A DNA stretch of 42,095 nt from the NCBI GenBank assembly GCA_902812465.1, contig CADDZE010000034.1:1-42095 (forward strand). Direction: 5' to 3'. The first letter of the stretch is position 1. Each line of letters opens with the position of its first letter. Position numbers and translations under genes: made by a program. Positions 4,439 to 25,420 of this stretch are shown here, in pieces. The notes under the pieces are model-generated. The model made no database searches and was not told the origin of the DNA. It saw nothing but the letters and a program-made list of their open reading frames with translations. This stretch comes from Acidobacteriota bacterium. GTDB taxonomy: Bacteria; Acidobacteriota; Terriglobia; UBA7540.

Positions 4439-7400
4439 TCAGAACAGCAAACGCAGCCCAAACTGGATGCGCCGGGCAGGCGCCGCCCCCGCTGGACAGG
4501 TCGAGTCCCCAACCGTGCAGTTGGCCTTACCAAAGCCACCACTATTCAGATCAGTGTTAATGGCGTCAAAGTTGGGATGATTGAGAACATTGGCGACATC
4601 CGTCCGGAACTGCAGATTCCAGCGCTCATTGAGCTTGAAATTCTTCGACAGGCCAGCATCGAGCCCATTGAACCAAGGTCCGTGGAAGACATTCCGACCC
4701 AAGCCGCCGAACTTAATGCCTTCCCCCGAAGGGTTCACGAACAGCTTGTTGGGTGTCACGACGCCGAACTCGGCATTGCATTTAGCCGTGGCGGCCGCAC
4801 TCGATAGCTGGCCGGCGAAGCCGCAGCCGATCGGATTAACGTCGGTGAAGATTCCATCCGCCGGGCTACCATGGGAGTAGATGCTTCCGGATCCCACAAA
4901 ATCAGGGTGGTCATTGTTGACGCGGTCGAGGTTATAATCGCAGCCAATGTTTTCTGGAACTCCATTGGCATCCACAGCATCGCCCTTATAGCGTGCTCGA
5001 CCGCAATATACCTCAATCGGGTGTCCGGAATAGGCTTGGTAAAAGCCGGTCACCTGCCACCCTCCCACCACCTTCCCCAGGAAGCCCTTCTGGTCGCGCA
5101 GGAAGGGAAGCTGATAGGTAAGGACCACTTTGAAGTTGTGGCGGTGATCGAAGGCTCCGGAGCCCCTCTCGAGATTCTTATGGTTATTGGAGATGAAGTA
5201 GTAGGGCTGGCTGTAGGCGCCTTGGGTGGTTGAGCCGGCAAACAAGTCAGAGTTGAAATCGATCAGGTGGCTCCAGGTGTATCCGCCCTGAAACTGCAAG
5301 CCATTACTTAAGCGCTTTTGAACCTCGGTAACCAGAGCATGATAGCTAGAGGTGATGTTATTGGCGCGGTAGTTAAAGCCGGTGTAGTCGGGATTCGGAC
5401 GAACCGCTATAAAGGCACGGTTATAGCCTTCTCCGTCGTAGCGGTTCCAGTTCATCAGCACTGGGAGGTGACGGCCCAAGGAGCCCTGGTAGTTGACGCG
5501 CACGAGCAAGTTCTGGGCGAACTGGTGCTCGACGCCCAGATAGAAGTTTTGCACCGAGGAATCCTTGAGGTTGTTCTCCATGGTGCGAACAGAGACACGC
5601 CCGGCGGGCCCTGGTAAGCTGTTCGGAACGTAACTCGGCGAGGGCCTTGGAGGGTTGCTGTAAAAGATGGTGTCACCGATCGTCGCATCCCAGTCGATGA
5701 GGCCATAAAAAGGCGGGTTCCAGGCGCCATTGGACCAAACATTGTCAAAGATGCGGTCATAGGAGATACCGAAGCCACCCCGTACCGCCGTGCGGCCGTC
5801 GCCGAAGACGTCCCAGGCGAAGCCGACGCGAGGCCCAAAATCGCCCAGCCGTGTATTCCACATGCGCGGCACCGGCCCGGTGCGCGCGTTGGCGATGCAC
5901 TCGATGAAGGAGATAGTGGTCGAATTGATGCAGTTGAAGTTCACAAACTGAGCCAGGATGCCATGCTGCTCGGTGGGAGCACCGTAAATGTCCCAGCGCA
6001 GCCCGAGGTTGAGCGTGAAGTGAGGCTTCACCTTAAAATCGTCATTCACGAATAGGTAAGTGTCGTTCATGATGTAATGGCGGTAGGCGTTGGCCCGTGC
6101 CCCGGTGCGTGGATCGATGGAGAGCTCCTGAAAATATGGGAAATCATGCTGGAAATTGCTCACCGTCGAGTCGGAGACATTGGTGATGCTCCCGTCGGGA
6201 TTAACCGTCACTTCTCCGGCGGCCGCTGCAGCAGCGATCGAGGGTCCGAGAACATTCCCAAACTCGTAGTATCCAGGCAAACCGAGATCCCAGTTCCGAT
6301 AAAGAATGCCGTGCTGCCAGCCGCCGCCGAACTTGAAGGAGTGTTTGCCGGCAATAAGGCTGGCGTTGTCCTGAAGCTGCCAGCGATCCTGAGTGAAGAG
6401 CTGAATCAGGCCGCCTTCGTAAGGGCCGAATCCAAAGGCGAGTCCTGCATAGTCGTCGCCGTCGATGATGATTTCGGGATCGAGATTCTTGCCACCCCCC
6501 TCCAAAAAGTTCGAATAATGCCGGTTATGTGCCATAGTCAGCTCATTGATAAGCTGAGGCGTAAAGGTATGCGTTTCCACCAGAGTCAGGTTGTGATAGT
6601 GCTCTCGATCCTGGGAGTTAATCGGCTTCACCGACACGTGCCCGCCCCCGTACTTATCCGTGCCGGTGAGACGGTGAACGTTGGCCGTGAAGCTGAGCCG
6701 GTCCTTCGTGCTGAAATTCTGATCAATGCGTCCGTAGTAGTTGTGTTCGGGCTGCTCGAACGGATCGAAGAACGTCGTGCAGCCGATGAAACCCACCGCG
6801 GCCGGATTATTGGCCGCTTCCGCCGGACAGAGCGCACTGGAGGTGATTGGCGGATACTTATTAAGGTAGTAGCTCGCAATCTGGCCGGCACCCTGGGTCA
6901 GCTGCGAAAGCAGCGCCGGAGTGGGAACCGACGTCACGGTGTTCCCTCCGGTGTGCAATGCAATCTGATCATAAGCGAAGGCAAAGAAGGTTTTGTCCTT
7001 CACGATGGGGCCGTCGACTTCACCGCCAAACTGGTTACGAATGTACTTCGGCTTAGGGTGCCCGGCGCGATTGGAGAAGAAGTCCGAGGCGTTCAGCGAC
7101 CGGTTGCGATTGAATTCGTAAGCCACGCCGTGAAAACTGTTGGTCCCTGATTTCTGCACGGCACTCACCACCGCCCCACCACCGCGGCCATACTGAGCAC
7201 TCATCTGGTTGGTCAGGATGCTGAACTCCTGCACCGACTCAAGAGGCGGTGTGATGTTTTGGGCGCCTTCGCCGAAATTGTCGTTATTGTCTGAGCCGTT
7301 CAGCAGAAAGGCCGTGCCCGCTTCCCGCTCCCCGCCTGAGGCCGCGCCAAAATTCATACCCTGGGTCACCTGCGGCGCGGCAAACGCCAGATCGTACACG

Positions 7401-7855
7401 TTGCGCCCGATCAACGGCATGCTAGTGATGGTAACGTTGTTCACCGTGTGCACCAGGTCCGAAGTCGACGTCTGCACCAGAGGCACCTGGGAGGTAACTT
7501 CAACGGTCTGCGTGGCTTTGCCAACCTCCAGCGTCACATCCAGGCTCACCGTCTGGCTGGGGTCGACCGTTACGTTCTTGCGGAGATACTCCGCGAATCC
7601 CGTGGCCTTCACCTGGACGGTGTAGGTGCCTGGAGGAACGAGTGGAAATCGGTACAAGCCGTCCCGGCCCGTCGTCGTAGACTGCGAGACACTGGTGCCT
7701 TCATTGACGATCGTCACCGTGGCACCCGGCAACACAGCGCCCGACGGATCGAACACCGTACCGGTAATGACACCCTGAACCGTTTGCGCTACAGCGGGCC
7801 GTGCAACGCACAACGATAAGCCTGCCAAACCATAGGCAACAATCTTCCTCAGCAT
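4439..7855 (-). CDS. TonB-dependent receptor with carboxypeptidase-regulatory-like N-terminal domain
   Basis: An outer-membrane beta-barrel of 1138 residues. The ATG at 7855 is chosen because GGAGG lies a few bases upstream and a clean signal peptide follows (MLRKIVAYG to AVA, about 23 residues). Residues 27-110 form an Ig-like carboxypeptidase regulatory domain (VFDPSGAVLPGATVTI, GLYRFPLVPPGTYTVQV). A plug region follows, then a long barrel ending in FGLRLLF with the terminal Phe typical of outer-membrane barrels. This architecture (Oar-like) is greatly expanded in Acidobacteriota, where it is thought to import glycans or peptides. The ligand is unknown. A good promoter (7886-7915) precedes the gene and a strong terminator follows it. 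A 41-bp element shared with the Rel/SpoT gene lies about 250 bases upstream. Confidence 0.93.
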   Translation of the reverse strand: MLRKIVAYGLAGLSLCVARPAVAQTVQGVITGTVFDPSGAVLPGATVTIVNEGTSVSQSTTTGRDGLYRFPLVPPGTYTVQVKATGFAEYLRKNVTVDPSQTVSLDVTLEVGKATQTVEVTSQVPLVQTSTSDLVHTVNNVTITSMPLIGRNVYDLAFAAPQVTQGMNFGAASGGEREAGTAFLLNGSDNNDNFGEGAQNITPPLESVQEFSILTNQMSAQYGRGGGAVVSAVQKSGTNSFHGVAYEFNRNRSLNASDFFSNRAGHPKPKYIRNQFGGEVDGPIVKDKTFFAFAYDQIALHTGGNTVTSVPTPALLSQLTQGAGQIASYYLNKYPPITSSALCPAEAANNPAAVGFIGCTTFFDPFEQPEHNYYGRIDQNFSTKDRLSFTANVHRLTGTDKYGGGHVSVKPINSQDREHYHNLTLVETHTFTPQLINELTMAHNRHYSNFLEGGGKNLDPEIIIDGDDYAGLAFGFGPYEGGLIQLFTQDRWQLQDNASLIAGKHSFKFGGGWQHGILYRNWDLGLPGYYEFGNVLGPSIAAAAAAGEVTVNPDGSITNVSDSTVSNFQHDFPYFQELSIDPRTGARANAYRHYIMNDTYLFVNDDFKVKPHFTLNLGLRWDIYGAPTEQHGILAQFVNFNCINSTTISFIECIANARTGPVPRMWNTRLGDFGPRVGFAWDVFGDGRTAVRGGFGISYDRIFDNVWSNGAWNPPFYGLIDWDATIGDTIFYSNPPRPSPSYVPNSLPGPAGRVSVRTMENNLKDSSVQNFYLGVEHQFAQNLLVRVNYQGSLGRHLPVLMNWNRYDGEGYNRAFIAVRPNPDYTGFNYRANNITSSYHALVTEVQKRLSNGLQFQGGYTWSHLIDFNSDLFAGSTTQGAYSQPYYFISNNHKNLERGSGAFDHRHNFKVVLTYQLPFLRDQKGFLGKVVGGWQVTGFYQAYSGHPIEVYCGRARYKGDAVDANGVPENIGCDYNLDRVNNDHPDFVGSGSIYSHGSPADGIFTDVNPIGCGFAGQLSSAAATAKCNAEFGVVTPNKLFVNPSGEGIKFGGLGRNVFHGPWFNGLDAGLSKNFKLNERWNLQFRTDVANVLNHPNFDAINTDLNSGGFGKANCTVGDSTCPAGAAPARRIQFGLRLLF

Positions 7856-7885: not shown

Positions 7886-7915
7886 CACATAGCACGCGAC
7901 CACAGCCGATGTCAA
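7886..7915 (-). promoter_or_regulatory. sigma-70-type promoter of the TonB receptor gene
   Basis: On the minus strand TTGACA (7915-7910) is followed after 18 bases by TATGTG (7891-7886). Transcription would start near 7879, giving a short leader of about 24 bases containing GGAGG before the ATG at 7855. Confidence 0.6.
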
Positions 7916-8100
7916 GTTTGAACTCCCGTAACCCTTAGCTTGCATGTTCACCGTTTGGGATGCGGGTCGAGGTGGTGTCCAGCCCCGCACGTGCTTGCCC
8001 AAGGTCAACCGCAACGCCGCAGGGCTGACAGACGGGACCTGCCTCACTTGTCCTCTTTGCTTCGTCGGCGGGGTATCGGCGAGCTCTGTTTGGGAGCTGC

Positions 8101-8141
8101 CCTCGTCTTTTCAAGCACATATCCGGTTCGTTTCGTCAAAA
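8101..8141 (-). repeat. 41-bp conserved intergenic element, copy 1
   Basis: Read on the minus strand it starts TTTTGACGAAACGAACCGG, continues ATATGTGCTTGAAAA and ends CGAGG. It matches 20782-20822 (plus strand) at 36 of 41 positions. The copy points toward the TonB receptor gene, ending about 245 bases before its start. I cannot fit it to a sigma-70 promoter. The conserved blocks GAACC and CGAGG, 19 bases apart, could be an alternative-sigma promoter or a regulator site. Confidence 0.7.
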
Positions 8142-8393
8142 CGCTCTGAGCGCGACGTTGCCGTTCCGGCCACACCGGAAATGTCTACGATTCCTACGTC
8201 TCATACAGCCTATACAATGGCTACGGTTTGCGCGTTTCTGGTGTATTGGTGTGCGCCGCCTAACGCCCTCCAGCGGCTGACCCGCGCCGGCATCTCTGGA
8301 ATCCACGGTGCCGCCTGGTTTAACATAGCGGCTGGCGCGAAAGTGCGGACGGGCAGGCAATGGCCCGGCGCAGGCAAGCGGCAAGGTGCAAGT

Positions 8394-9059
8394 ATGCGGC
8401 ATTTCGACGAATTACTGGACGAGTTGAGAAAGAGGCTGGTGGAGATGAGCGGACTGGTGGAGTCGGCGATCCACCAGAGTGTCCGTTCGCTAGTGGAGCG
8501 GAACGAGGAACTTGCCCGCCAGGTGCTGCGCGGCGAATCGCGAATTAATCAGATGGAGATTGAAATCGACGATTTGGCGACGGCGCTTCTGGCGCTTGAC
8601 CAGCCAGTGGCCTCCGACCTGCGCTTCATCACTGCGGCCATCAAGATCAACACCAATTTGGAGCGGATGGGCGATAAGGCGGCCAACATCGCCGAGCGGT
8701 CCATTGCTCTGCTCGCGGAGCCGCGGATTGAGGCACTGGTTGACATGCCGCATTTGGCCAATCTCGTGCAAGCCATGGTCAAAAAGGCGCTGGACGCCTT
8801 TGTCAACAAAGATTCCGAACTCGCCCGCAGCGTGCTGGTGTCCGACGATGCCGTCGACGAGTTGCGCGACGCCATGTTCAGTGAGTTGATCGAACACATG
8901 CAGCGTGACCCAACGACGGTCCGGCAGTGTGTGGACCTTATCTTTGTGGCTCGCAGTCTCGAGCGCATCGCCGACCACTGTACCAACATCGCCGAAGAGG
9001 TTCTCTTCGCGGTTGAAGGCATCGACGTTCGGCACCACGCCGCCCAACCCATCGACTGA
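8394..9059 (+). CDS. phoU: PhoU-family phosphate signalling protein
   Basis: A 221-residue all-helical protein with two PhoU three-helix bundles. Each carries the metal-binding signature: LERMGDKAANIAE near residue 95 and LERIADHCTNIAE near residue 195. PhoU links the Pst phosphate transporter to the PhoR-PhoB sensor and represses phosphate uptake when phosphate is plentiful. It acts in the cytoplasm at the inner membrane. The ATG at 8394 is chosen because the family start (MRHFDELLDELRK) begins there and AAGGTG lies upstream; the frame is open further upstream without family-like sequence. No pst or phoBR genes are in the window, so this copy is separate from its usual operon. Confidence 0.9.
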   Translation: MRHFDELLDELRKRLVEMSGLVESAIHQSVRSLVERNEELARQVLRGESRINQMEIEIDDLATALLALDQPVASDLRFITAAIKINTNLERMGDKAANIAERSIALLAEPRIEALVDMPHLANLVQAMVKKALDAFVNKDSELARSVLVSDDAVDELRDAMFSELIEHMQRDPTTVRQCVDLIFVARSLERIADHCTNIAEEVLFAVEGIDVRHHAAQPID

Positions 9060-11234: not shown

Positions 11235-11270
11235 AAGAACAAAACGGGCGGACCCTTGCGAGTCCGCCCG
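11235..11270 (-). terminator. intrinsic terminator of the cold-shock gene
   Basis: A perfect 9-bp stem CGGGCGGAC/GTCCGCCCG (11245-11253 with 11262-11270), an eight-base loop, then TTTTGTTCTT on the minus strand. It lies 35 bases after the cspA stop at 11305 and before the aspartase gene. Confidence 0.88.
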
Positions 11271-11304
11271 CCAACGTTTACCCGGTTTCGAGGACCGAGC
11301 GCCT

Positions 11305-11508
11305 TTAAAGTTTTTCGACGTTCTCTGCCTGCAGGCCCTTGGGACCCTTCTTCACGTCGAAGCTGACCCGGGCACCCTCTTCTAGAGAGCGGTAGCCATC
11401 ACCCATAATCGCCGAGAAATGTACGAACACGTCGTCACCACTCTCGCGCTGGATAAAGCCATAGCCTTTGGACGCGTTAAACCACTTCACTACACCTTGT
11501 TCCTTCAT
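11305..11508 (-). CDS. cspA: cold-shock domain protein (CspA family)
   Basis: A 67-residue single cold-shock domain (OB fold) that binds single-stranded RNA and DNA and acts as an RNA chaperone. RNP1 (KGYGFIQ) and RNP2 (VFVHFSAI) are intact. The length is right for the family if the start is the ATG at 11508 ([11 protein letters not shown]). The frame stays open upstream, but that part is not family-like. AAAGGA lies about 14 bases before the start, slightly far. A promoter at 11688-11716 predicts a leader of about 170 bases, and a strong terminator follows. The gene is therefore a single unit with the long leader known from cold-induced csp genes. Confidence 0.93.
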
Positions 11509-11681
11509 ATTCTTGTGCAACATCCTTTGATTTGAAATTGCAATTTGTGGGAACGGCAACGGCGGGAAAAACCCGACGATTCCGCTTGTAACACCGCGGT
11601 CACAAAAGCAAGGCTACGCCCCTTCGGTGAAGCGCTCCTTTGGCTGTTGCGAAGCTCATCGGGATTACAACTACAAACTGC
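11509..11681 (-). promoter_or_regulatory. long 5' leader of the cspA mRNA
   Basis: From the predicted start near 11681 to the ATG at 11508 is about 173 bases with no credible reading frame. Cold-induced csp mRNAs such as E. coli cspA have leaders of about this length that refold with temperature. The function here is inferred from length and position. No structure was computed. Confidence 0.45.
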
Positions 11682-18937: not shown

Positions 18938-20446
18938 CTAACTTCCCGATTGCCCGAAGGCCTGGCGCACTGCTTGTTCCATGAGGGCGCGCGGCGCCGA
19001 CTCTCCGGTCCAGATTTCAAACTGCCGGGCTCCTTGCGCCACCAGCATCTCAAGGCCGGAAATGGTGGTGAGCCCGCGCCCGCGAGCTTCCGCCAGGAAG
19101 CGCGTCTCCATGGGGTAGTAGACCATGTCAAACACCACGCGCACGCGCAGCCGCGCCAGATCGAGCGGCAAAGCGTCCACATAGGGCGCCATGCCGACGG
19201 GCGTCGCGTTAATGACCGCATCGACGTCGAGCCCGTCCGCGCTGCCCCACGGCACGACTTGCGCCGAGATGCCCCGCGCCAAGCTGCGCCCGGCCGCTTC
19301 CCGTCTCGCCGCAATGATCACCACTGCCCCTTCGGCGCGCAGCGCGTAGGCAGCGGAACGAGCCGCTCCTCCAGCACCGAGAATCAGGATGCGGCTGCCC
19401 GCCAGGCGCAACCGCTTGGTGAGCACCTCGACGACCGCGGCGGCGTCCGTGTTCCAGCCCATCCACTTGCCATGTTGCACCGCCACCGTGTTGCAGGCAC
19501 CAATCTTCGCCGCCAGCGGATCCACCCAGTCCAGCTCGCGAATGATGGCTCGCTTGAAGGGCATCGTCACGCTAAATCCCGAGAATCCCAATTGCCGCGC
19601 GAAGGCCAAAAAGTCCTGCAGGCGGTTCGTTTCGCAGGGCATATAAATGGCGTTCAGGTGCTTGGCATGAAAGGCCGCATTCTGCATGGCAGGCGAGAGA
19701 GAGGTTGAGGCGTGCGACCCGACCACCCCGTAGTACTGCGTGCGCTGGTTGAGATGCTCAACGTGGTACACGGAGCGCATCACCTCAACGGGAAACTGCC
19801 CCGGCGCCACCGCCAGCAGGCTGCCCGCTGACGCATAAGTGAAAGGCGAACCCCACTTCAGGCTCAGCAAGCGAGAAGGAAGGCCCGAAGGTCCCAGCGC
19901 GAAGGCCACCAGCTGAGGGCTCTTCCGGCGGTGCGACGCCAGCAGCTTCTGGATGCGCAGGTTGTCGGTAAGCTGGCTGGCATGCGTCGCGATCTTGATC
20001 ACCTGAACCGGCAAGCGCGCCAGCCGCCGGTAAAGCGCGCCCAGTGGAGGAGTTTGCCTGAAGTTGTGGTAGGACACGATGACTTTGGCGGAGCGGAAGC
20101 GCGAAAGCAGCATGCGACGCGCGTGCTGGAACGACTCCATCTCCACGTCCAGCCACTGACAGCCGGCACGCATCGCCGCCTCCAAAATGCCAGCCTGCTC
20201 CTCGACCGACCCTCGGAAGAGCCCTCCCGCCTCGGTCCGCCGACAGGTGGCAATGGTGAGCGGAAAACGTAGCCGCAGCAGCATCTCGTGCAGGCGCTGC
20301 TCCAGGCCCTCGTAGTCCCGTAGGTAGTCCAGACGCAGCTCGTAGCCAATCTGGGAGCCACCTACCCGTCCCGCCTGGTTCTCCATGACCGTGAGCGCGG
20401 GTGCAGCAAGCGTCACGAAGATGCGGATTGGCGTGGATTTGGCCAA
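18938..20446 (-). CDS. aroDE: bifunctional 3-dehydroquinate dehydratase (type I)/shikimate dehydrogenase
   Basis: About 502 residues fusing two steps of the shikimate pathway. Residues 8-215 are type I dehydroquinase: YELRLDYL, then TCRRTEAGG, the active-site His in VSYHNF and the Schiff-base Lys in VIKIATHA. Residues 235-500 are shikimate dehydrogenase: SLSPAMQN, the catalytic Lys in TMPFKRA, GACNTV, GWNTDA, the NADP loop GAGGAARS and NATPVGM. The fusion order is that of plants and some bacteria. The start is uncertain: the frame opens with TTG at 20446, which keeps the first beta strand (IRIFVTLAAP), whereas the first internal ATG would remove it. The N-terminal part is complete only with the TTG or a nearby GTG. 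A promoter lies at 20548-20577. It is upstream of trpE and probably co-transcribed. Confidence 0.9.
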   Translation of the reverse strand: MAKSTPIRIFVTLAAPALTVMENQAGRVGGSQIGYELRLDYLRDYEGLEQRLHEMLLRLRFPLTIATCRRTEAGGLFRGSVEEQAGILEAAMRAGCQWLDVEMESFQHARRMLLSRFRSAKVIVSYHNFRQTPPLGALYRRLARLPVQVIKIATHASQLTDNLRIQKLLASHRRKSPQLVAFALGPSGLPSRLLSLKWGSPFTYASAGSLLAVAPGQFPVEVMRSVYHVEHLNQRTQYYGVVGSHASTSLSPAMQNAAFHAKHLNAIYMPCETNRLQDFLAFARQLGFSGFSVTMPFKRAIIRELDWVDPLAAKIGACNTVAVQHGKWMGWNTDAAAVVEVLTKRLRLAGSRILILGAGGAARSAAYALRAEGAVVIIAARREAAGRSLARGISAQVVPWGSADGLDVDAVINATPVGMAPYVDALPLDLARLRVRVVFDMVYYPMETRFLAEARGRGLTTISGLEMLVAQGARQFEIWTGESAPRALMEQAVRQAFGQSGS

Positions 20447-20577: not shown

Positions 20578-20781
20578 GAAATCCGGCCCCTTCAAGAGGT
20601 AGCTCCCACTCACAGCTTCGGAAGGCCCGCTCGAGGACCTCACGAAAGAAACGTCTCGTGCGTGCGATCCGGGCGCTTACAAATTATCGTAACCATCGTA
20701 AGCGTTGTTGCCAATGTCGACGTCGTTAGGAATGTAAAAGGGGCCGGCGTAGCAAAGGTGCGTGCGCGGTCGCGCATAGCC

Positions 20782-20822
20782 TTTTGACAAAACGAACCGG
20801 ATATGTTGTTGAAAAATCGAGG
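20782..20822 (+). repeat. 41-bp conserved intergenic element, copy 2
   Basis: It starts TTTTGACAAAACGAACCGG, continues ATATGTTGTTGAAAA and ends CGAGG. The match to 8101-8141 (minus strand) is 36 of 41. It points toward the Rel/SpoT gene and ends 131 bases before its start. The longest identical block is 18 bases (AAACGAACCGGATATGT plus flanks differing by single bases). Confidence 0.7.
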
Positions 20823-20953
20823 CCGGAAATGTGTCGAGCCGGGGCATTGGCAGGATTTTACGTTCAACCGGTCGGCGGGCTCGGTCTGGTGGGGCGCGCT
20901 AGGCACCGGATCGCCTTATTCCGAGTCCCAGGGCACCGCCGACCAGACACCAG

Positions 20954-23131
20954 ATGCTAAAATGGACGCAAAACATGCTCCAGTTCGAGGAGATCGTCCG
21001 CAAGGTGCAGGCCTACCGCCCCGGGGAGGACCTCACCTTGCTGCGCAAGGCTTACGAATTCAGCGCTGCCGAGCACAAGAGCCAAACGCGCCTCTCGGGC
21101 GAGCCCTTTGTCTCTCACCCGCTCGAGGTCGCCAATGTGCTGGCAGACATGAAGCTGGACGTGGTGTGCCTGGCGGGCGGGATGCTCCACGACGTCGTAG
21201 AGGACACACCCACCACCATCGAGCGGGTCAAGGCCGAATTCGGGCCCGAAGTGGCGCGGATCGTCGAAGGCGTCACCAAGATCAGCCGCCTGACCTTCCT
21301 TAGTCCGGAGGAAAAACAGGCCGAGAACCTGCGCAAGATGGTGCTGGCCATGGTTGACGACATCCGCGTCGTACTGGTAAAGCTGGCTGACCGCCTACAC
21401 AACATGCGCACCCTCGAATACATGCCGCCGGAGAAGCGCGAGACCATTGCCCGGGAGACGATGGACATCTATGCTCCCATCGCGCACCGCCTGGGGATGG
21501 GCAAGATTCGCGGCGAACTGGAAGACCTGGCGTTCCGCTACCTCGAGCCCCAGGCCTTCGAGGAAGTCAAGCAGGCGGTGGAGAGCCGCCGCAAGGTAAG
21601 CGAGGAGTTCCTGGCCGAGGTCTGCCGCCAGGTGGAAGAGAAGATGAAAGCCCACGCGATTCCGGTGCGTATCGAGGGGCGTATCAAGCGGCTTTACAGC
21701 ATTTGGCAAAAGCTGCGCCGCCAGCACATTTCCATCGAGCAGGTCTATGACCTGCTCGCTATCCGCATCATCACCGACTCGGTGAAGAACTGCTATGCGG
21801 CCCTGGGGGTGATCCACAATACCTGGCGGCCGGTGCCGGGCCGCATCAAGGATTTCATCGCTATTCCGCGCCCCAACCTCTACCAGTCGCTGCACACCTC
21901 GGTGATCGGCCCGCACGGACAGCCCTTCGAGGTGCAGATCCGCACGGAGGAGATGCATCGTCTGGCCGAGGAAGGCATCGCCGCACACTGGAAGTATAAG
22001 GACGGCAAGGCGCTGACGCCCGAAGATGAGGAGCGCTTCGCGTGGCTGCGCCACTTGGTGGAGTGGCAGCGCGAGATGCGTGATCCCAGTGAGTTCCTTT
22101 CCACGCTCAAAATCGACCTCTACCCCCAAGAGGTCTACACCTTTACGCCCAAAGGCAAGGTGATCGTGCTGCCGCGGGACGCCACGCCCATCGACTTCGC
22201 CTACGCCATCCACACCGAGGTCGGCCACCACTGCGTAGGGGCGCGCGTCAACGGACGGATGGTGCCTCTCAAGTCGCGCCTGCGCAACGGCGATATCGTT
22301 GAGATTACCACTCAGGCCAACCATCATCCCAGCCGCGACTGGCTGAGCGTGGTGAAGACCTCGCGGGCCCGCAACAAGATCCGGCACTGGCTGAATGTGG
22401 CCGAGCGCCAGCGGGCCATCGAGATCGGCAAGAAGCTGCTGGATAAGGAAGCGCGCAAATACGCCATCGCCCTCAAGAACGTTCCGGAAGCGGATTATCT
22501 GCGCGTCGCTCGCGACTACGGCTGCCATCACCTCGACGACTTGCACGCCAGCTTGGGCTACGGCAAGATCTCGGCCCGCCAGGTGCTTTCCAAGTTGGTG
22601 CCGTCTACCGAGCTCGAGCCGGAGTGCGCGCCGCGCCTGACGGGCATGGTCAAGCGGGCGCTCGGCCTGACGCGTGATGAAGCCATCCAGGTGCATGGGT
22701 ACGACGATCTAATGGTCTACCGCGCTAAATGCTGCAATCCTATCCGCGGCGAGGAGATTGTCGGTTACATCACCCGCGGCAAAGGCATTTCGGTGCATTC
22801 CAAATCCTGCCCCAACGTCCAGAATCTGCTTTACGACGCCGAGCGCCGCATCGAGGTGGAGTGGACTGGACCCCAGCAGAGCCTCTACACGGTGAAACTC
22901 ACGCTGAGCACGGCCGAGCGGCGCGGTATGCTGGCGGACATCACGGCTGCCATTAGCGACGTCCAGTCGAACATCCTCAATATCGAGGCCCATTCCGACC
23001 ACGACCGCGGCAGCATTGACGTCACGCTGGACATCGTCGACATGCACCACCTCGAACGCATTGTCACCGCGCTGCGGCGCATCGATGGCGTCTTCGAGGT
23101 GAAACGGGTAATGAATAGCGCCAGGCAGTGA
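20954..23131 (+). CDS. rel: bifunctional (p)ppGpp synthetase/hydrolase, Rel/SpoT family
   Basis: A 725-residue long-form RSH protein that makes and breaks the stringent-response alarmone (p)ppGpp. The hydrolase domain has HP at residue 55-56 and the HDVVED motif (79-84). The synthetase domain (about 230-360) has GRIKRLYSIWQKL, DLLAIRIITD and RIKDFIAIPRPNLYQSLHT. The RxKD motif, with the intact HD motif, marks a bifunctional enzyme rather than RelA. Then follow TGS (VYTFTPKGKVIVLPRDATP), a Cys-containing conserved region (AKCCNPIRGEEIVGYITRGKG) and a C-terminal ACT domain (about 650-725). It binds the ribosome. The ATG at 20954 or the one at 20975 could be used; neither has a strong ribosome site. 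A 41-bp element shared with the TonB receptor gene lies upstream. Confidence 0.94.
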   Translation: MLKWTQNMLQFEEIVRKVQAYRPGEDLTLLRKAYEFSAAEHKSQTRLSGEPFVSHPLEVANVLADMKLDVVCLAGGMLHDVVEDTPTTIERVKAEFGPEVARIVEGVTKISRLTFLSPEEKQAENLRKMVLAMVDDIRVVLVKLADRLHNMRTLEYMPPEKRETIARETMDIYAPIAHRLGMGKIRGELEDLAFRYLEPQAFEEVKQAVESRRKVSEEFLAEVCRQVEEKMKAHAIPVRIEGRIKRLYSIWQKLRRQHISIEQVYDLLAIRIITDSVKNCYAALGVIHNTWRPVPGRIKDFIAIPRPNLYQSLHTSVIGPHGQPFEVQIRTEEMHRLAEEGIAAHWKYKDGKALTPEDEERFAWLRHLVEWQREMRDPSEFLSTLKIDLYPQEVYTFTPKGKVIVLPRDATPIDFAYAIHTEVGHHCVGARVNGRMVPLKSRLRNGDIVEITTQANHHPSRDWLSVVKTSRARNKIRHWLNVAERQRAIEIGKKLLDKEARKYAIALKNVPEADYLRVARDYGCHHLDDLHASLGYGKISARQVLSKLVPSTELEPECAPRLTGMVKRALGLTRDEAIQVHGYDDLMVYRAKCCNPIRGEEIVGYITRGKGISVHSKSCPNVQNLLYDAERRIEVEWTGPQQSLYTVKLTLSTAERRGMLADITAAISDVQSNILNIEAHSDHDRGSIDVTLDIVDMHHLERIVTALRRIDGVFEVKRVMNSARQ

Positions 23132-24559: not shown

Positions 24560-25090
24560 ATGAATTGCGTGCTCGCCGCCTTGTTGCTGGTTCCCCAGTC
24601 GGTCCTAATGCCTGATGAACCCGGCCTCTACTACGCCGAAGCGAACCATTTCACCCGCGTGGAGGGCCGCGCCGTGACCCTTGCAGAGAGCGGAGGACAT
24701 ATTCCGCTGAAAGGCTCGCTGCCTCTGGCCGGCAGCAGCGGCACCAAGGCGCAAATTTTAGGTGAAAGCGCCGAGTTGAAAGTGACGCCGACCCCCGTCT
24801 TTTACTTTCGTCCGGCGAAGGATAATGAAGCTTCGGGTGCGGGAGACTTGGTGCTGATCAAGCTTAAGAGGAGGAAGCACTGGCGCGAATTCGAGGTCAG
24901 TTCCAAGCCCGATTGGAAGGCGAGTTCCGGCATTCCGCTGAAGGCGCAGGTGCGCTATTACACCAGGCAGGTGGAGCGCGGCCTCTACAAGCTCTTTCCA
25001 GCGGAGGACCTCGATCCGGGTGAGTACGGTTTCTACCTGTATCGTGGCCGCGACCTTCCCGGACTCATCTATGATTTTGCTGTGGAATAG
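24560..25090 (+). CDS. secreted protein of unknown function
   Basis: I do not recognise a named family in this 176-residue protein. It begins with a short hydrophobic stretch (MNCVLAALLLVPQSVLM) that could be a signal peptide and then appears mostly beta. It has two recurring blocks of style: a polar segment with IPLKGSLPLAGSSGTKAQI and a later VLIKLKRRKHWREFEV, ending GEYGFYLYRGRDLPGLIYDFAVE. Similar proteins are common next to acidobacterial housekeeping genes, in my recollection. A TATAGT at 24516-24521 could be its -10 box, with a weak -35. The start ATG at 24560 has only a weak ribosome site (GGGAC). It is convergent with the small membrane protein gene. Confidence 0.7.
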   Translation: MNCVLAALLLVPQSVLMPDEPGLYYAEANHFTRVEGRAVTLAESGGHIPLKGSLPLAGSSGTKAQILGESAELKVTPTPVFYFRPAKDNEASGAGDLVLIKLKRRKHWREFEVSSKPDWKASSGIPLKAQVRYYTRQVERGLYKLFPAEDLDPGEYGFYLYRGRDLPGLIYDFAVE

Positions 25091-25168
25091 CCGCCCCCTC
25101 TTCCGGGAATAGGCTCCCGCTGTCCGGGCTGGCAATCCAGGGTAAGGTTGACCAGCCGCGGACGGCCT

Positions 25169-25342
25169 TCACGGCACGAAATACATGATCCATCCAAGCG
25201 CTACCGCGATGCCCACAAATAGTGCGAAGGATTTCGCCGCATAGAGGGCGCGCTCGCGAGGCGTATCCTTGCTGATGACGCCGAATACGGTCGAGACGAG
25301 CGCTGCAAAGAGCAGTAGTGCAGGAAAGTGGGTAATAGGCAT
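25169..25342 (-). CDS. 57-residue small membrane protein
   Basis: A complete frame of 58 codons: ATG at 25342 to TGA at 25169-25171. It has two hydrophobic segments, FPALLLFAALVSTVFGVI (6-23) and SFALFVGIAVALGWIMYFV (38-56), joined by the basic/acidic loop SKDTPRERALYAAK, typical of a two-helix membrane hairpin. AAGGAA stands directly before the ATG, closer than ideal. It follows the DUF6677-like membrane protein gene by 78 bases on the same strand. Function is unknown. I judge it real from composition, the clean two-helix pattern and the context. Confidence 0.6.
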   Translation of the reverse strand: MPITHFPALLLFAALVSTVFGVISKDTPRERALYAAKSFALFVGIAVALGWIMYFVP

Positions 25343-25420
25343 TTCCTTAGAAGTCCGTGCGCTGCATTCGGCGAGCCAAATGACAACCGCCTGCTGGCTG
25401 ATTTCAGACTGATGCCATGC

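Follow-up and report, generated by a model that had tools for sequence, protein, structure and literature searches.

A family of short intergenic repeats in Terriglobia, probably tied to a partner gene

The window analyzed here is a 42,095-nucleotide stretch comprising the whole of one contig (C34, CADDZE010000034.1) of a 3.9 Mb draft genome in 190 contigs from a soil bacterium of the Terriglobia (Acidobacteriota), referred to below as G000. Two 41-base stretches of this window, located upstream of a TonB-receptor-like gene and of a relA/spoT-type gene, each represent one copy of a short non-coding element present about 75 times in G000. The original prediction was right in observing that these stretches are shared, and the phenomenon is far larger than it reported. 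The window copies are probably members of a repeat family of Terriglobia whose short non-coding units lie between genes and are associated with a partner gene. A repeat family with a partner, built like the REP/RAYT systems but differing from them in its unrelated protein and in an element that is mostly non-palindromic, is in our analysis the most economical account, in which we have fair confidence. The scattered solo copies would then derive from the 3′ end of a gene-plus-element module and would owe their spread to the partner protein, or to host machinery that recognizes the element, as in RAYT/REP or IS/MITE pairs. The two window copies, next to the receptor gene and relA/spoT, would be insertions of this kind with no functional link between them.

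The element in the window and in its own genome

By direct reading, the two stretches (8101–8141, minus strand, and 20782–20822, plus strand) are identical at 36 of 41 positions and share an uninterrupted 17-base core, AAACGAACCGGATATGT. Gene calls and Pfam matches confirm that each lies in a divergent gap and is oriented towards its own gene, about 245 and 131 bases before the start, as first described. The sequence TTGACRAAACGAACCGGATATGT occurs twice in the window and in none of 100 shuffles, even with 3 mismatches allowed. Across G000, the 15-mer ACGAACCGGATATGT is found at 76 places with up to 2 mismatches (36 of them exact), compared to 3 for the reversed control. An ungapped alignment of 70 copies places the limits of the full conserved unit (~58 bp) at −11 and +46 relative to TTGAC, with the consensus CAAAwGTtaATTTGACSAAACGAACCGGATATGTKRTTGAAAAatcgAGGnCGG. 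The two window copies and their surroundings are as follows.

4439..7855, minus strand: TonB-receptor-like gene with OMP_b-brl_4 barrel and CarboxypepD_reg (Pfam), downstream of copy 1; start codon at 7855 with a Shine-Dalgarno sequence (direct reading)
7887..7915, minus strand: sigma-70-like promoter TTGACA-N17-CTATGT of the receptor-like gene, downstream of copy 1 (direct reading)
8093..8150, minus strand: element copy 1 (pattern match at 8117–8139, limits from the 70-copy consensus; encloses 8101–8141)
8394..9059, plus strand: phoU, divergent neighbor of copy 1 (Pfam PhoU)
18938..20446, minus strand: 3-dehydroquinase (type I)/shikimate dehydrogenase fusion, divergent from relA/spoT and neighbor of copy 2 (Pfam)
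20773..20830, plus strand: element copy 2 (pattern match at 20784–20806, limits from the consensus; encloses 20782–20822)
20954..23131, plus strand: relA/spoT-type gene, downstream of copy 2 (Pfam HD_4, RelA_SpoT, TGS, ACT_4)

Elsewhere in the window, positions 11241–11637 (minus strand) match the cspA thermoregulator over its full length but below threshold (32.3 bits against a gathering threshold of 78, E 9e-5).

Thirty positions of the G000 unit are near-invariant, while positions 5, 20, 23, 24 and 32–36 vary among 2–3 bases. Divergence per position (chi2 590, df 32) is therefore far from uniform decay, indicating position-specific constraint on the units. Between different copies, flank similarity does not exceed background, and core positions are linked mainly to their neighbors; thus, there is no sign of recent copying in G000.

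All 70 copies examined are intergenic, according to the uncurated calls of a purpose-written codon-usage gene caller. The downstream gene is co-oriented with the element in 64 of the 67 cases with a called gene, and gaps between co-directional genes hold 26 sense and 0 antisense copies. The median distance from element to start is about 195 bp. The original prediction had named copies mainly inside genes, random orientation or absence from relatives as results that would count against it; the copies are instead never in genes, are oriented, and recur in relatives (see below). tRNAs gave no explanation for the exceptional loci, with a single antisense tRNA-Ala near L009. The ~65 genes downstream of the copies cover a broad range of housekeeping and surface functions, including aroA, trpD, mutS, recN, phoH, thiC, uvrC, tig, ksgA, glgA, sucC and TPR proteins. 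The proposed link between nutrient import and the stringent response is not supported, since these genes look random and the targets change from one genus to another; with unrelated housekeeping genes downstream, there is no TonB/Rel regulon. A transcription-factor regulon with related, conserved targets was rejected on the same grounds, between-genus sharing being at chance level.

Sigma-70-like promoters are found 60–200 bp downstream of the G000 copies. Between element and start, the best promoter score exceeds 9 in 25 of 47 loci, compared to 2 on the antisense strand, and shuffled sequence in the same scan gave a mean of 5.4 against 8.8. The element is thus mostly located upstream of the promoter and outside the leader RNA.

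Versions and dispersal among relatives

A 46-column sequence model was used to search 250 genomes, all drafts. The element is present in 29 of the 39 sampled genomes of the window's own family and in several of a second Terriglobia family (f5), with almost none in the other families among the 250. A scan of named genomes matched Terriglobia/Acidobacteria MAGs, a Bryobacterales bacterium and a Candidatus Solibacter sp.; matches in SAR116, Algibacter and similar organisms look like chance, those in SAR116 and Algibacter being in apparent coding sequence. No element was found in virus contigs, plasmids or phages. Copies are alike within a genome, and the versions of different genomes differ at several adjacent positions. 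Nearly all versions have AACGAAnC....AnGTnnTTGAAAA in common.

G009 and G023: CCGGAGAGGTT
G029: CCCGAGAAGTT
G014: AAGCCGCTAAGTT
G025: AAGCTAGGAAGTT
G024: AAACCGTCAGGTT
G004: AAGCTGTTATGTT

The arrangement of units also varies. Genus g10 has arrays of about 230 bp in which the units are spaced at 66 bp, compared to about 50–53 bp in other genera. The orientation bias, strong in G000, is moderate in g10 (21 sense to 5 antisense) and absent in G025 (3:3). Many g10 arrays (L111, L115, L137, L140) have a repeated sigma-70-like promoter, CTTGACAnnnnCTGGCCTAGCATGGTAGTCTTC, in front of them. It is found even before arrays whose next gene is antisense, so that the arrays of g10 may form transcripts of their own. 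The G014 version (L101, L159, L191 and others) differs from those of other genera in a 15-bp imperfect inverted repeat, CGAAGCCACTAGGTT...AACCTAGCGGCTTCG, before the core.

Different genera have element-adjacent genes in common at about the level expected by chance, estimated on the assumption that a genome has about 1,500 intergenic gaps. In g10, the sampled sites (20 x 20) have 5 downstream genes in common. In a targeted comparison of 14 loci, some orthologous gaps contained the element and others did not; those without it have diverged too far for a clean junction to be visible. Copies of g10 located at unrelated genes resemble each other at 80–95% over left flanks of up to 350 bp, in a mosaic fashion, and the G004 copies have a long left flank in common. 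The element in g10 is a dispersed repeat, part of longer duplicated units. Unsystematic inspection made no terminal repeats or target-site duplications evident, the empty sites being too diverged for a precise junction.

The strongest alternative to a repeat family with a partner is that the element is a true cis-regulatory site, which we consider unlikely. A global DNA-binding protein, enhancer-like or nucleoid-structuring, would bind the ~58-bp unit upstream of sigma-70 promoters and modulate many unrelated genes, its sites evolving in concert with it. The strict sense orientation and upstream position in G000, together with the strong position-specific constraint, are as expected for such a site. 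So is a second promoter count in G000, in which scores above 9 occur downstream of the element in 33 of 61 loci and upstream in 5 of 61. Two loci, L020 and L062, have tandem copies before one gene, which also favors binding. However, different genera have no more targets in common than by chance, orientation is random in G025, the distance to the promoter varies widely, and copies in g10 share flanks. The homogeneous change at several positions in all copies of each lineage would also be hard to achieve for independent sites. The tandem pairs themselves are spaced 190 bp (L020) and 149 bp (L062) apart, and the genes behind them encode an HMGL-like enzyme and an AI-2E family transporter.

The repeat family with a partner has its own difficulties. 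Insertion alone leaves the strict orientation in G000 unexplained, and other genomes such as G025 show no such orientation. The lack of signs of recent copying in G000, of terminal inverted repeats and target-site duplications on inspection and of clean empty sites also counts against it, as do the deviating sub-version of the gene-linked elements in G000 and a partner protein with neither a nuclease or transposase signature nor a match to a known fold (see below). The position-specific constraint and strict orientation upstream of promoters suggest that the G000 copies are now selected in place, either through selection against other insertions or through co-option as an upstream cis-element.

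One contig of G014 (C5; L254–L258, CADDZC010000005, NODE_62) carries 4 copies of the G000 version, whereas the rest of G014 has its own version. Its read depth is 26, compared to roughly 35–48 for other contigs. Based on depth and element version, the contig probably comes from another species and was binned into this assembly. It was therefore rejected as a close relative for footprinting, and no DNA-level orthologue in common with G000 was found among the pieces tested.

The partner gene

In G009 (L124) and G029 (L109), an open reading frame ends 5 bp before the element, and in its homologues in G025 (L313) and G014 (L106) the reading frame ends inside or beside the element. The possibility that the frame upstream of L124 is an HsdS tail was rejected; it encodes the partner protein. 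This protein consists of 310–350 residues with the motif ...NAQKSTGPRTxAGKRRAALNALKYG... (also given as STGPRT...NALKHG). It has no match in Pfam, NCBIfam or PHROGs and none convincing among PDB sequences, and no recognizable nuclease or transposase signature was found in it. An AlphaFold2 model is all-helical (mean pLDDT 79, 13 sequences). Foldseek searches of the PDB and BFVD with this model returned no match at E<=0.001, and only non-significant coiled-coil matches.

In a profile search, close homologues (E<1e-150) occur once each in G014, G025, G009, G029 and G023, all element-rich, and in all five the gene is followed by an element. Weaker homologues are found in many other genomes. Strong matches (E<1e-20) are present in 17 of 29 element-positive genomes, compared to 1 of 10 element-negative genomes. 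When 50 own-family partner loci were scanned with the element model, 25 gave a total of 41 matches, all on the same strand and 3′ of the gene. Confident matches (E<=1e-3) occur at 16 own-family and 3 f5 loci, and 19 of 19 are same-strand and 3′; these adjacency counts cover the retrieved protein loci, and loci of one genome are not independent. One weak match in f5 (E 0.01) breaks the rule. In six genomes, the version next to the gene is the same, or nearly the same, as the scattered one.

Shorter derivatives of the gene-element pair are also present. L116 and L125 of G009 (genus g10) each contain a 50-bp piece of the 3′ end of the L124 gene at 92–94% identity, followed by the element, and thus look like internally deleted gene-plus-element modules. 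G000 contains two remnants of the partner gene: a 112-residue reading frame on contig C11, its stop followed 11 bp later by a degenerate element (L346), and a frameshifted copy on contig C9 followed by three element units (L351). Both of these gene-linked elements are of a sub-version different from the 75 scattered copies.

It is conceivable, if improbable, that the element is only the 3′ untranslated or overlapping part of a multi-copy STGPRT/NALKHG gene family, and that solo copies are functionless remnants of degraded genes. The consistent 3′ same-strand adjacency, the fragments of 3′ end plus element in g10 and the frameshifted remnant in G000 would all follow from this. Yet about 75 copies in G000 are without a trace of the gene and have kept 30 near-invariant positions, and the conserved orientation to the next gene would stay unexplained.

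Under the preferred account of a repeat family with a partner, the partner protein would move or bind the element. A more specific version, which we put forward tentatively, is that the STGPRT/NALKHG protein recognizes AAACGAAnC...GTTRTTGAAAA at its own gene's 3′ end and either spreads or binds copies across the genome, which in the window lineage became a genome-wide, strictly oriented cis-element upstream of promoters. Such a repeat-and-partner system of Terriglobia might, with the same caution, be previously undescribed, as the protein belongs to no described family of the libraries searched.

Promoter and RNA readings, and comparison with known systems

The element is indeed not a sigma-70 promoter, as originally noted, since its TTGAC has no −10 sequence at 16–18 bp. 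The further suggestion that GAACC and CGAGG form an alternative-sigma (ECF-like) promoter fails: conservation between the boxes is no lower than within them, CGAGG itself reaches only about 50% conservation, so that the pair is not a feature of the family, and sigma-70-like promoters are located downstream. We therefore regard a second, upstream promoter for each gene as very improbable. A non-palindromic, gene-oriented element upstream of a sigma-70-like promoter would suit that role, but conservation is continuous, where two boxes with a free spacer would be expected, relatives have tandem units at a spacing of 66 or 53 bp, and the orientation of the element to genes is random in G025. A structured leader-RNA element (riboswitch or thermometer) is the least credible reading, since, despite a position 100–400 bases before start codons, the element has no consensus structure or covariation (no base pairs in the consensus of 23 G000 copies), does not fold better than shuffled sequence, has no Rfam match, and is followed by a promoter in most G000 loci. 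A left-end hairpin, CAAAw-N4/5-wTTTG, looked suggestive by eye and was discarded as covariation is absent.

The closest parallel to a repeat family with a partner is provided by REP elements and REPINs, GTAG-/CGTC-tagged palindromic repeats associated with RAYT transposases (PMC3733652), whose populations have been described (PMC8049555). Both systems have short intergenic repeats in tens of copies, with homogeneous, genome-specific versions; one copy adjoins the partner gene, here on the 3′ side only, and solo copies are intergenic elsewhere. In contrast to REP/RAYT, the G000 unit is not palindromic, its consensus is without a GTAG/CGTC tag, its copies are strictly oriented upstream of promoters, and the partner is not a Y1_Tnp HUH transposase. 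G000 has no match to Y1_Tnp (PF01797), the RAYT domain. The dispersed, non-autonomous copies, with internally deleted derivatives that keep the unit ends (L116/L125 compared to L124), also resemble MITEs or solo IS ends, although no terminal inverted repeats or target duplications were seen (by unsystematic inspection) and the partner has no known transposase domain.

The tnpB genes of IS200/IS605-type elements encode an RNase H-like nuclease and have an overlapping 3′ omega-RNA. The order of a gene and a same-strand conserved non-coding segment, sometimes overlapping, is similar here, but the partner model is all-helical with no RNase H-like fold, and the element is without RNA structure. Mobile promoters (“promoter propagation”) are upstream intergenic sequences duplicated before unrelated genes. 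The element resembles them in its duplication upstream of unrelated genes, and the duplicated unit of g10 carries a sigma-70-like promoter, whereas the G000 element has no promoter of its own and is located upstream of that of the gene. Many short (<50–100 nt) repeats have been reported in Candidatus Solibacter usitatus Ellin6076, of the same class (PMC3174227); no sequence, position or partner gene was named for them, unlike for the element here. A literature search for the element sequence or for such repeats in Acidobacteria found nothing specific.

Few repeat families with a dedicated partner gene are known in bacteria, and the well-studied REP/RAYT systems use an HUH transposase. If our account is true, the Terriglobia repeats would be a second such arrangement, with an unrelated helical partner and lineage-specific elements in two families of an abundant soil phylum. 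They would then provide a new way for elements to disperse and allow a repeat to be followed as it turns into a regulatory site. The link to the element also gives a starting point for a multi-copy family of hypothetical Acidobacteriota proteins that is found on a planctomycete plasmid as well. For annotation, reading frames that run into element arrays may have element-encoded ends, as in the partner genes of G014 and G025. The plasmid homologue, annotated as hypothetical, is at 25051–25356 of NZ_CP011274.1 (Planctomyces sp. SH-PL62) and matches the N-terminal part of the partner protein at 44% over 106 residues.
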